Below are positions 2,753 through 7,243 of a stretch of DNA of 33,796 nt, in pieces. The notes under the pieces were generated by a model. It was not told the DNA's origin and did not search any database. It saw only the letters and a list, made by a program, of their open reading frames with translations. The stretch spans positions 1 to 33,796 of the forward strand of contig KN880686.1 of assembly GCA_000934385.1 (NCBI GenBank), in the 5' to 3' direction. A program made the translations under genes and the position numbers. The first letter of the stretch is position 1, and each line of letters starts with the position of its first letter. The DNA comes from Cylindrobasidium torrendii FP15055 ss-10. Its lineage: Eukaryota > Basidiomycota > Agaricomycetes > Agaricales > Physalacriaceae.

Positions 2753-5354
2753 TCAGCCTGAGCGTCCCATCGCATTCAACCTCAACGGCCCTCTATTCCA
2801 ATGTTCATTCCCCGCGATGAAATCGGCCCTAACGATCTTTGACCGGGACTTGACCACCCCGTCTCCCTCGACTTTCACATACAACCCTTCGATTCGTCCA
2901 TCCCAAAATGCAGACGTCTGTTGAACCCTATCCTTGAGAACAGCATCTGGCGGCATCGGGCCCTCGTATATGGTCGGGGTAACATGAATGCCACTATCAT
3001 TGAGCAGGGCAACTAGCGTCTGGCGGTCACAGAAGGTCCCAGTAACGCGGTCGAACATATCGAATGCCATGAACCAGTCGGGAAGCCGGGTGTACGGAAT
3101 CGAATGTGTGGCATAAAGCCACTCGCCGTACAGGGTATATCGCTCGGGGAAGTGAGCGTCGCGGCCCAGGATCTTGATGAGCGCATGTTTGTGCTCTTCG
3201 ATCCAGTGACCTAGTTTCTTGAATTGTGCGTGCGAGGATGGATTGACGTAGTGGGAGCGGTTCTGCGCAACAATGGACAAACGGTCGGGGGAAAGGCTGA
3301 AGCCCATGTTCGCGCCATCGACCTTCTCCGTTATAACAGCATGTCCTTGAATGAGATTCGTCGGCGGAAGGACCACGTCGTCGTCTGTCGCAGCCCCAAG
3401 GTTAAGCAGATGCGGTGTTCGAGGGAACTTGAGGAGGTCAATTCGGGGTGACAAGCGTGCCACAAGCTCTTCACACGCTGCAAACGAGCGAATGGTGACG
3501 ACTGCCTTGAATCCCTCGCCGACCGTCGGCACGTCCATTTGATCTTGCATCTGGGACACGGCGTTGTCCACTCTGTTTCCGGGGCGCAATGTCGGGTGGT
3601 GCGTCCGTTGTTGGGCGCGCGACAGGCAAAGTTCGCGGTCATAGTCGAAACGGACGCAGACTGGCGATGTGGCCCACGTCGAAGCAAGTGCTAGCCAGAG
3701 CTTCCTATCTGCACGAGATGGGTTACAACGATCGAGTATGACATTTTGCTTCAAAGCTGGAGCCCTCCCAATCGCATTCTCACACATGTCCCGGCTCCCT
3801 GCTTCATCCTGGCATATCCAATTCCATCCCTTCGGGTTGCGCTTCATCAATGCCTGCGAAAGCCATGACTTCCCGGACCCAGGGAGACCCACCAAGATCA
3901 AGAGGTCCGCACTCGTTCTGAGCTCGCCGTCCACCTCTAGTGCGCATGGGGCAGGTTCTGGTGGTAAATCTGGCAGAATGCACTGCCGTTTCCAGATAGT
4001 ACTGCACCATCGCGACACAAAATCTTCTTGCTGTTTCGTCTCCAGGCTCTCTGGCCTAATGGCGCGAAGTGCAGCAATAGCGTCTGGCGCAGACATAGTC
4101 GGGAATGCTAATGAGGGTTGAGGACGACCAAAACCATAGGCCGCGAGATAACAGGCTGCTACTGTGCCCGCACGACCCTTGCCCCCGCCACAGTGGACGA
4201 GAAGAGGAAGATTATCTTTCTGTTCGAATAGACGCAGAATGAGGGTCATCTGCTCAATGGTTGGCGGCATGTAGTTGGTCACAGGAATGAAGGTGTTTGA
4301 AACTGGTTTGCTGGCGAACCATGCTGGTGGCAGAGGCTGCTCCTCTGTCAAGGTAAGAACATGTTTTATGCCTAGAGTCGCAAGGGATGCGATGTCTTCT
4401 GCTTCGGTGGGAGTGGACATTACTGCAAGGTAGAAAGGAACAACCCATCGGAAGAAACGGGGAAGGCGCACACCGTCTGGGGATTTCCTTGATGGTAGAA
4501 TGAACAGAGGGACCCGTGGGGAAAGACACAGAGAGGTGACCGTCGACGCATTGGCAATCTCGTCGCGAAGTTCTGACGACCATGGCATGCATAGCGTGCT
4601 GCGAAACCGCGCCGTAATTTGACACTTCTCGTCTTCGGTGAATATGACGCCCCATTCTGTATGTCGTGAGCAGTCGACCATCTTCTTGATGGAGTGCTGT
4701 TTTGTTGCTGTGTTTGTTGTGTGTTCCCAGGCCTGGGCATATGCAAGCATCGCAAGCTTGAATAGCCCTTGCTGTAACGCAGATGTGGCCATTCGGAGAT
4801 ATCCCTTCTCGGATTGAGGGAAGGAGTTAATCATTTGGTGGATATACTTGTCTTCATTCCCTTGGTCTCCGAGCAGGTGGAGGGTATAGACAAGATGGTC
4901 GAGGAGTAGGATAGATGGACTTGATGAGAGCTGGTGGGGTGGTAAACATTGCATCTCGCTCTCTGCATCTTCATCGTCTTCACGGAGTGAGACTGAGAAA
5001 TGCCGCGGTGGAAGCCCAAGTTTGCGTCGAAAGGACTGTCCGAGAGCCCAAACGAGCACAAGATACTGCTTTCCGGTGTTCGTGAGTCCGATGCCTGTAA
5101 AATAATGAGCACAGCATTACTGGAAGGGTGGGCGACGCACCCAGTGCATATATATGCGTGACATCAACCTCTGGCACCGTATAGGTCACTTTCAAGCCGC
5201 GGCGTTCTTCGGCTGTGAGCAGCGTGGCATGATGGGGATAGTCCTTCCTCTGGTCTAGCTGTCCGCTCCTGAGCAGGGCTTCACGGACAATAGTGTCGAG
5301 AGCAGGCCCAGCAAGGCGTAAGGCTCCATTGGTGACAGACAAAGTCGCACACAT
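2753..5354 (-). CDS. Four-domain RNA end-healing and sealing protein: 2H phosphoesterase, DUSP23-like phosphatase, P-loop kinase, RNA ligase
   Basis: Two exons, 5354-5141 and 5094-2753, with a 46-nt intron (GTGCGT...ACAG), give 851 residues. Residues 1-115 look like a 2H phosphoesterase: HAT at 42-44 and HFS at 103-105. Residues about 125-200 are helical and TPR-like. Residues about 275-435 resemble DUSP23, with HC-x5-R at C373 and R379; the usual acid Asp is N345. Residues about 470-610 are a PNKP-like kinase: P-loop GLPGSGKS (474-481), QDEAGSR (D501, R506) and ILDRCN (about 524-529). Residues about 628-851 are an Rnl2-type nucleotidyltransferase: motif I EKVDGAN with K662, motif III YGEW with E729, FMAFD, motif IV EGLYVK, and KSRSK as motif V. 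I infer that it opens cyclic phosphates, phosphorylates 5'-OH ends and ligates RNA. Catalytic residues are present in every module except the phosphatase acid. It is divergent from the PLC gene. Confidence 0.88.
5095..5140 (-). other. Intron joining the two halves of the 2H domain
   Basis: A 46-nt intron with donor GTGCGT and acceptor TTTTACAG, phase 1. Splicing joins exon 1, which carries the first H-x-T motif, to exon 2, which carries the second H-x-S motif. Without this join the N-terminal domain is missed and the protein seems to begin at an internal GTG codon. Confidence 0.85.
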
Positions 5355-5713: not shown

Positions 5714-7243
5714 ATGACCTCGTCTGAGCTGGAGAACGAAATCGCCAACGCCTTCACGGTGAACACCCAAATCAACCTTCATCCTCTGCAAGCCGAAACA
5801 CTCCAAATCTCGCCAGCCCTCCTCGAGCTATGCGGTCTATCTGCAGAAGAACTCTCGCGCGAGCCATCGCTCAGCGTTCCCGAGACGCCAGCCGACAGAC
5901 CGTTGACGCACTACTATATCAATTCCTCCCATAACACTTATTTACTCTCCCGCCAGCTCGTAGGCAAATCTGTGCCCGAGTCTTATTCGCACATCATTCA
6001 CCGCGGCGGGCGATGTGTCGAGATGGATGTCTGGCCGGCGAAGAAAGAACTCCCTGAAGGCACATTTGCCACTAGCATTGAAGAGGAGCCAGTCATCACG
6101 CATGGATATACGCTTTCCAAAAGTATACCCTTTCGTGCCGCCTGTGAGGCTGTGAACGCAGCCATCACCCCCACGATGTGGCCTATCCTCATCAGCTTGG
6201 AATGCCATGTTCCACCTCAGGGACAAGACGACATCGTCCGTGTCATGAAGGAAGTCTTTGCCGACAAGCTCGTCGACCGCGAGCTGGAAGGGGTGGACGA
6301 TGAGAATGTATCGCCAGGCCAATTCCTAGGCCGCGTCCTGGTCATGGTTGAATTCTATGCCCCGCCAGGAGGGGACGACATCGAGGCTTCCTCCTCGTCG
6401 GATTCGGACTCTGACGCAGAGGGCCCCGCACCGCCCAAGCCCTCTGCCATTTCAGACTCTCTTGCCTCTGTAGGCTTCTATTGCCGGTCAATGAAACCAA
6501 CTTCCACCAACTGGCCCACATCTCAATTCCTGCCTCCTTCATATCCACGACACATCCTCATCAACGTCTCAGAATCCAGGCTCCATTCTCACAAGGTGGA
6601 TGACCTCTGGGCCCATGCCCTGCACCACCTTCGGCGTGTTTTCCCAAAGGGCACCCGCATCGGCAGCAGCAATATGGATGTCGTCCGCTGCTGGCGTAAC
6701 GGAAGCCATGTCGTGTCGGTGAACTGGCAGAAATACGACCGAGGCGCACAGCTAAACGAGGCCATGTTTGTGGGCACGCCCGGCTGGGTCATCAAACCCC
6801 CCGAAGCGCCTGTCCGAGGAAAGACGCGGTACACACTCCGCATAGCAGGTGTATCGGGCCTGACGTCGGATGAGCACCTCTACACCAAGGTCCAGCTCTT
6901 CCATAAAGATGGCGACAAGCTGTGGGAGAGCAAGAGCGTCAAAGCCGGCGAGAAAGGCCTCGTTTGGGACGAGACTGTTGAATGGAAGGAACATTGGGAC
7001 GAACTGGCGTTCTTGCGGGTGAGGGTGCTCGAGAACGAGTGGGGAAAGGATGATAGGTTGGGTATCTTCTGCGCCCGAGTGAAATATCTGAAAGAAGGAT
7101 GGCATGTTTGGCGACTTTTGGATAAAACGGGAAAGTGGAACGGCGCGACTTTGCTAGTCGAGTGGAAGGCTGAAGACGCCGAACATTTCCATGCAATGCA
7201 TGAATTGGGCAGGAAGATGAGAGGAGTGATGCATAGCGAGTAA
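5714..7243 (+). CDS. Phosphoinositide-specific phospholipase C (X, Y and C2 domains)
   Basis: Hydrolyses PI(4,5)P2 to IP3 and diacylglycerol in known homologues. Single exon, 509 residues, ATG at 5714. The X domain (residues about 60-215) keeps the catalytic set: NSSHNTYL with the first His, VEMDVW with Glu and Asp of the Ca2+ site, ITHGYTL with the second His, and ISLECH with Glu. An acidic Ser-rich X/Y linker (SSSSDSDSDAEG) lies near residues 222-235. The Y domain follows, with FPKGTRIGSSN and VSVNWQKYDRGAQLNEAMF, then a C-terminal C2 domain from about residue 375. There is no PH domain and no EF hand ahead of X, so it is shorter than yeast Plc1. It is the only gene here without introns. 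Confidence 0.93.
   Translation: MTSSELENEIANAFTVNTQINLHPLQAETLQISPALLELCGLSAEELSREPSLSVPETPADRPLTHYYINSSHNTYLLSRQLVGKSVPESYSHIIHRGGRCVEMDVWPAKKELPEGTFATSIEEEPVITHGYTLSKSIPFRAACEAVNAAITPTMWPILISLECHVPPQGQDDIVRVMKEVFADKLVDRELEGVDDENVSPGQFLGRVLVMVEFYAPPGGDDIEASSSSDSDSDAEGPAPPKPSAISDSLASVGFYCRSMKPTSTNWPTSQFLPPSYPRHILINVSESRLHSHKVDDLWAHALHHLRRVFPKGTRIGSSNMDVVRCWRNGSHVVSVNWQKYDRGAQLNEAMFVGTPGWVIKPPEAPVRGKTRYTLRIAGVSGLTSDEHLYTKVQLFHKDGDKLWESKSVKAGEKGLVWDETVEWKEHWDELAFLRVRVLENEWGKDDRLGIFCARVKYLKEGWHVWRLLDKTGKWNGATLLVEWKAEDAEHFHAMHELGRKMRGVMHSE

Follow-up and report, generated by a model that had tools for sequence, protein, structure and literature searches.

The contig KN880686.1 of Cylindrobasidium torrendii, which was analysed as a window of 33,796 nucleotides, encodes on its minus strand an 851-residue protein that is, judged by its domains, a member of the recognised Swiss Army Knife family, and that probably mends, by a clean seal, RNA breaks that leave a 2',3'-cyclic phosphate and a 5'-OH. 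Along the chain, Pfam finds a 2H phosphoesterase, a dual-specificity-type phosphatase, a P-loop kinase and an RNA ligase, in this order and all above the curated cut-offs.

The sequence confirms that the gene is real and intact: its start ATG lies at 5354, and the reading frame, with one predicted intron, remains intact through to the stop codon at 2755-2753. The gene and the encoded domains are arranged as follows.

5354..2753, minus strand: whole gene, ATG to stop codon, 851-residue protein (spliced translation and Pfam scan)
5141..5354, minus strand: exon 1, residues 1-71 and the first base of codon 72 (spliced translation)
5095..5140, minus strand: predicted intron of 46 bases, GTGCGT...ACAG (GT-AG), from the frame and the 2H-SAK match across the junction
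2753..5094, minus strand: exon 2 including the stop codon (2755-2753), 787-codon open frame
4985..5318, minus strand: 2H phosphoesterase (2H-SAK, PF22547), residues 13-108, with the intron inside; Pfam 30.7 bits, cut-off 27
4700..4918, minus strand: linker, residues 131-203; weakly predicted, four helices in a single-sequence model with a block pLDDT of mostly 50-70
4016..4462, minus strand: DSP/PTP phosphatase (PTP-SAK, PF22784), residues 283-431; Pfam 189 bits, cut-off 27
3530..3904, minus strand: P-loop polynucleotide-kinase-like domain (AAA_33), residues 469-593; Pfam 52.6 bits, cut-off 27
2861..3340, minus strand: RNA ligase (PF09414), residues 657-816 (modelled 623-851); Pfam 109.9 bits, cut-off 27

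As the intron is derived from the sequence, the start of the 2H domain and the remainder could in principle be separate genes that were joined by a faulty gene model. This is extremely improbable, since the splice site lies inside the 2H match and exon 2 by itself carries the second 2H motif together with the phosphatase, the kinase and the ligase in one frame. The 2H-SAK match crosses the splice junction at residue 72 and thereby supports the predicted intron, and for the frame of exon 2 a stop-free run of 787 uniform random codons has a probability of about 4e-17. No noteworthy repeats flank the gene. A divergent phosphatidylinositol phospholipase C gene lies on the plus strand at 5714-7243, its start codon about 360 bases away from that of the repair gene. 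On the other side, WD40-like repeats, recognised by eye at 1333-2517, belong to a convergent gene that presumably resembles Prp4.

The earlier note had proposed four RNA-end enzymes on one chain at 2753..5354. The coordinates are right, the strand is minus, and all motifs were located at the residues given: HAT (42-44) and HFS (103-105) in the 2H domain, the phosphatase loop CGGGKGR (373-379, with C373 and R379), the kinase motifs GLPGSGKS (474-481), QDEAGSR (500-506) and LDRCN (525-529), and in the ligase K662, E729 within YGEW (727-730) and EGLYVK (807-812). Motifs alone were rejected as proof of the domains, as several are found near chance level: when the protein was shuffled 2000 times, 11% of the shuffles had two H-x-[ST] motifs within the first 150 residues, 72% had C-x5-R at any position, 4% had HC-x5-R, 1.2% had a P-loop and 11% had K-x-D-G. 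The domain calls thus rest on the Pfam profiles, and the profile search that the note had recommended matched the 2H, PTP-SAK, AAA_33 and RNA_ligase models above their cut-offs within the one gene, which bears out the single-chain claim. The weakest of the four matches is 2H-SAK, which lies 3.7 bits over its cut-off. The linker at residues 131-203 matched no Pfam family, and the single-sequence fold of the exon-2 protein has a mean pLDDT of 34.8.

Proteins of this kind have already been recognised, as Pfam holds the models “Swiss Army Knife, 2H phosphoesterase domain” and “Swiss Army Knife protein, DSP-PTPase phosphatase domain”, and the idea that the architecture is undescribed as a kind was rejected for this reason. 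The fungal protein shares with the family the 2H-SAK and PTP-SAK domains, the latter with C-x5-R, and its chain also carries a kinase and a ligase, a combination that we take to define the family. It differs in that HAD_SAK, which is found in some named members and is not required, has no Pfam match in the 851 residues. The family name reportedly stems from a survey by Burroughs and Aravind in 2016. In a passage of a jumbo-phage review, “Swiss-army-knife” is used for a HAD phosphatase family, with citation of Burroughs and Aravind 2016 (PMC7824862). Limited literature searches by the family names returned neither a description of such a fungal protein nor a functional test of such a protein.

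In case of the kinase, the closest solved structures are 9drz (5.7e-19) and 9d8a (7.1e-18), the latter named as a kinase of Rhizopus azygosporus, while mammalian PNKP follows at about 6e-6. QDxxGSR and DRCN are common to the window kinase, 9drz and 9d8a, whose chains are 165 and 176 residues long. The NCBI equivalog cut-offs were missed for bifunctional PNKP (TIGR01663, 42.8 vs 502.8 bits) and for bacterial Pnkp (TIGR04075, 23.7 vs 750 bits), and a literature search with these PDB codes brought up only unrelated work in the matches listed.

The ligase domain, of which a model from 54 rows has a mean pLDDT of 90.7, retains K662, D664, E729, H735, E807 and K824 as invariant residues in a 56-row alignment, in which 47 bacterial rows share 35-44% identity with it and are identical at these positions. 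In a PDB fold search, the leading matches are the trypanosome TbREL1, the Naegleria RNA ligase NgrRnl and T4 Rnl2, at 14-22% identity, and a few DNA ligases stand further down the list. By sequence profile, the best E-value (1.1e-7) belongs to a short stretch of Aquifex 3qwu, labelled as a DNA ligase, and the Naegleria ligase comes second (2.4e-5) over a longer stretch. With the nucleotidyltransferase fold that it shares with the Naegleria gruberi ligase, T4 Rnl2 and Trypanosoma REL1, and with motifs I, III, IV and V in the usual numbering of ligase motifs, the domain has features of Rnl2. The previous designation as “Rnl2-type” therefore holds for the fold, but not for the NCBI Rnl2 equivalog TIGR02307, which reaches only 12.4 of the required 197.15 bits.

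The same genome contains the loci of the well-known Trl1 route, found by profile matches:

contig C80, 50198-49377, minus strand: Trl1 ligase domain (PF09511); a longer match reads through one TAG, perhaps an intron
contig C80, 49010-48576, minus strand: Trl1 kinase domain (PF08303)
contig C80, 48515-47898, minus strand: Trl1 CPD domain (PF08302)
C4:359616-360357: Tpt1-type locus (PTS_2-RNA)
C186:11197-11911: Tpt1-type locus (PTS_2-RNA)

In the two Tpt1-type loci, parts of the match pass through stops, perhaps because of introns. As a Trl1 locus and two Tpt1-type loci are present, the repair protein would be an additional system. A check for a separate TRL1 had been proposed, and the three Trl1 domains were indeed found together on C80. 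The possibility that the repair protein is itself a Trl1 variant was rejected, as its ligase belongs to PF09414 and not to PF09511, and the Trl1 domains sit separately on C80. In both proteins, a single chain combines a sealing enzyme with a 5' kinase and a 2H-type healing enzyme, but fungal Trl1 has the order ligase, kinase, CPD, opposite to that of the repair protein, which moreover has an AAA_33/PNKP-like kinase, a ligase of another family and an added Cys phosphatase. The reversed order is borne out by the Pfam matches, and the claims of a different ligase family and of an extra Cys phosphatase (PTP-SAK) likewise held. Elsewhere in the genome, the next PTP-SAK match reaches 59.8 bits, compared with 193.6 for the repair gene, and the one other RNA_ligase (PF09414) candidate that was scored remained below the cut-off (18.5 vs 27 bits). 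The search of the genome with HAD_SAK_1 was empty, with a control that also gave no signal. An exon-by-exon search for 2H-SAK found none and missed even the repair gene, whose 2H domain is split by the intron; with a control that was again silent, this search cannot show that 2H-SAK is absent elsewhere.

No four-domain relative of the protein was found among the phage, plasmid, viral and prokaryote sequences searched. None of the 17 phage or 31 plasmid records spans 80% of the exon-2 protein, a first scan of prokaryote genomes with this protein gave no relative, PADLOC had no match for it, and viral contigs scanned with the kinase gave none either. When phages were searched with the phosphatase and kinase part, nine Vibrio phage records matched, in the phosphatase part only. 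On a viral contig (L013:4833-7146), two DSP-type phosphatase frames are neighbours, and the match on this contig corresponds to a short frame that resembles a phosphatase.

Taken by itself, the ligase domain has numerous relatives: 296 loci were confirmed on viral contigs, prokaryote genomes contributed at least 568, and the best 80 of each set were retained. A ligase tree of 121 rows was built from the window, 80 bacterial sequences and the best 40 of 96 long viral or phage matches. In this tree, the window ligase and all 80 bacterial rows form one supported set (96/90), and no smaller supported set holds the window ligase, which stands on a long branch and with weak support (90/10) beside a ligase from Myxococcales (L111). 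As the tree comprises no eukaryotic relatives, a bacterial origin of the ligase domain is suggested by it, and not established. In the Myxococcales locus (L111:3893-5919), the frame after the ligase carries HD and AAA_33 kinase domains. This is another pairing of healing and sealing, and it may, by analogy, be counted in favour of the healing-plus-sealing reading of the fungal protein. The genome of L111 gave no 2H-SAK match, in a search whose control was below the cut-off. Searches by phmmer with the 2H, phosphatase and kinase domains of the window found none of them in the best 80 bacterial loci, but they are insensitive, as they missed the AAA_33 domain of L111 that is found by Pfam. On a Cloacimonadota contig (L107:102-1921), a ligase relative lies directly behind an Apea-like HEPN protein, possibly as a nuclease-ligase pair.

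The bacterial relatives belong to the same ligase family as the window domain and differ from it in that they are mostly stand-alone frames behind two other genes. These conserved three-gene cassettes (L101-L180, L189-L193, L196 and L197-L199; examples are L177:2065-4663 and L116:2101-4669) consist of a DUF3696/AAA ATPase (HEC-03B), a gene that was termed PIN-like on the basis of a DTN motif (HEC-03A), and the RNA ligase. Within the best 80 of the at least 568 prokaryote loci, the ATPase and the PIN-like gene share the locus with the ligase in 72, of which 69 agree with a strict just-upstream rule and three have both genes but miss the rule; one further locus has the ATPase alone, and seven have neither by the rule. 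Among these seven, the sequence of L112 covers less than 600 bases upstream. In another (L133:1031-4675), ATPase and ligase matches lie in one open frame, possibly a fusion; its record is labelled Klebsiella, but in the ligase tree it clusters with the MAG of an alphaproteobacterium. By PADLOC, 7/7 ATPases have HEC-03B and 5/5 PIN-like proteins HEC-03A as best match, all hand-picked from the 72 loci, and the one ligase tested matches no model; Pfam gave no match for the five PIN-like proteins. In 282 genomes of the phylum of L111, HEC-03A was found at eight places in seven genomes, and a ligase lies within about 3 kb around six of these, the two weakest matches being the ones without it. The cassette is also present in the three plasmid records that were inspected out of 31, one of which is the same record as L114. 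The bacterial relatives thereby hint at a possible third HEC-03 gene: the ligase may be part of this candidate defence system and may reseal the cuts of the PIN-like protein. HECs have been described as “Hma-embedded”, several of them, with HEC-06 named, having antiviral activity (PMC12988326), and in the relevant part of another study HEC-03 is merely listed among detected systems (PMC13356809). A limited literature search brought up no study of how HEC-03 functions and none of its ligase.

How could the four domains cooperate? The 2H domain would open the 2',3'-cyclic phosphate to a monophosphate, which the DSP-type phosphatase would strip to yield a 2',3'-OH end. The P-loop kinase would phosphorylate the 5'-OH, and the ligase would then self-adenylate on K662, transfer the AMP onto the 5'-phosphate and seal the break. 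The resulting joint would be without a 2'-phosphate, unlike the joint that Trl1 leaves, and Tpt1 would therefore be unneeded, unlike in the Trl1 route. T4 Pnkp generates a 2',3' cis-diol, whereas the yeast and plant route generates a 2'-phosphate, on which its ligation typically depends (PMC3400036). The presence of a 2H opener and an added phosphatase on one chain fits the cis-diol outcome, and from this we infer the four steps up to a clean seal, the reactions, their order and the RNA substrate all being deduced from the domains. The phosphatase is the enzyme that is absent from Trl1 and that is required for a 2',3'-OH end, and the main catalytic motifs are intact in all four domains, with the exception of Asn345.

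This Asn345 is the chief doubt about the clean-seal mechanism. The closest PDB matches of the phosphatase are 25xa, a DSP family protein (2.1e-15), and DUSP23 (8e-13), and Asn345 aligns with an Asp in both, which in DUSP23 we take to be the general acid. As the Pfam DSPc cut-off was also missed (25.4 vs 33.5 bits, while the related PTP-SAK model is matched), the phosphatase may be altered, or may lack activity. The same machine could then have a phosphatase of low activity or one that is used elsewhere, for example on 5' ends or for binding, and the joint would retain a phosphate or another enzyme would dephosphorylate it. We regard this as rather unlikely, because Cys373 and Arg379 are retained, the domain matches PTP-SAK strongly, and some DSP-type RNA phosphatases probably manage without the Asp. 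Similarly doubtful is a role as dedicated processing ligase for an mRNA or tRNA splicing event of the fungus instead of damage repair: ligases of the same chemistry take part in splicing in yeasts, but Trl1 and Tpt1-type loci are already present in the genome, and among the ligase-domain relatives examined, most lie in defence-like operons. That DNA or another nucleotide is the substrate is very unlikely. P-loop kinases and nucleotidyltransferases of these folds do occur in DNA repair, and the similarity of the kinase to mammalian PNKP as well as the DNA ligases lower in the fold list could be seen in this light, but 2H domains typically act on RNA-type phosphoesters, the ligase belongs to PF09414, and RNA ligases head the list of its fold matches. 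The clean seal of broken RNA thus is the reading that we prefer, and it is an attractive and testable mechanism.

A comparable task is fulfilled in bacteria by Pnkp1-Rnl-Hen1, which heals and seals ribotoxin-cut RNA in one assembly (PMC4411300); this system consists of three proteins instead of one, and the fungal protein has no methyltransferase match in Pfam. For bdelloid rotifers, two papers describe acquired RNA ligases that are induced after fungal attack or radiation, and one of them proposes a repair of ribotoxin damage. These ligases are a parallel, and not evidence for the fungal repair gene.

If the proposed mechanism is true, a fungus already equipped with Trl1 and Tpt1-type genes maintains another RNA repair enzyme, which is complete in itself and differs in the chemistry of its joint. 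It is conceivable, though we advance this only tentatively, that a fungus has two parallel RNA-rejoining pathways that produce different joints, one by Trl1 with a 2'-phosphate for Tpt1 and one that is clean, and that the ligase of the latter came from the ligases of bacterial HEC-03 operons and was fused to healing enzymes against RNA-cutting attack. With the clean-seal mechanism, the purpose of Swiss Army Knife proteins would become visible.
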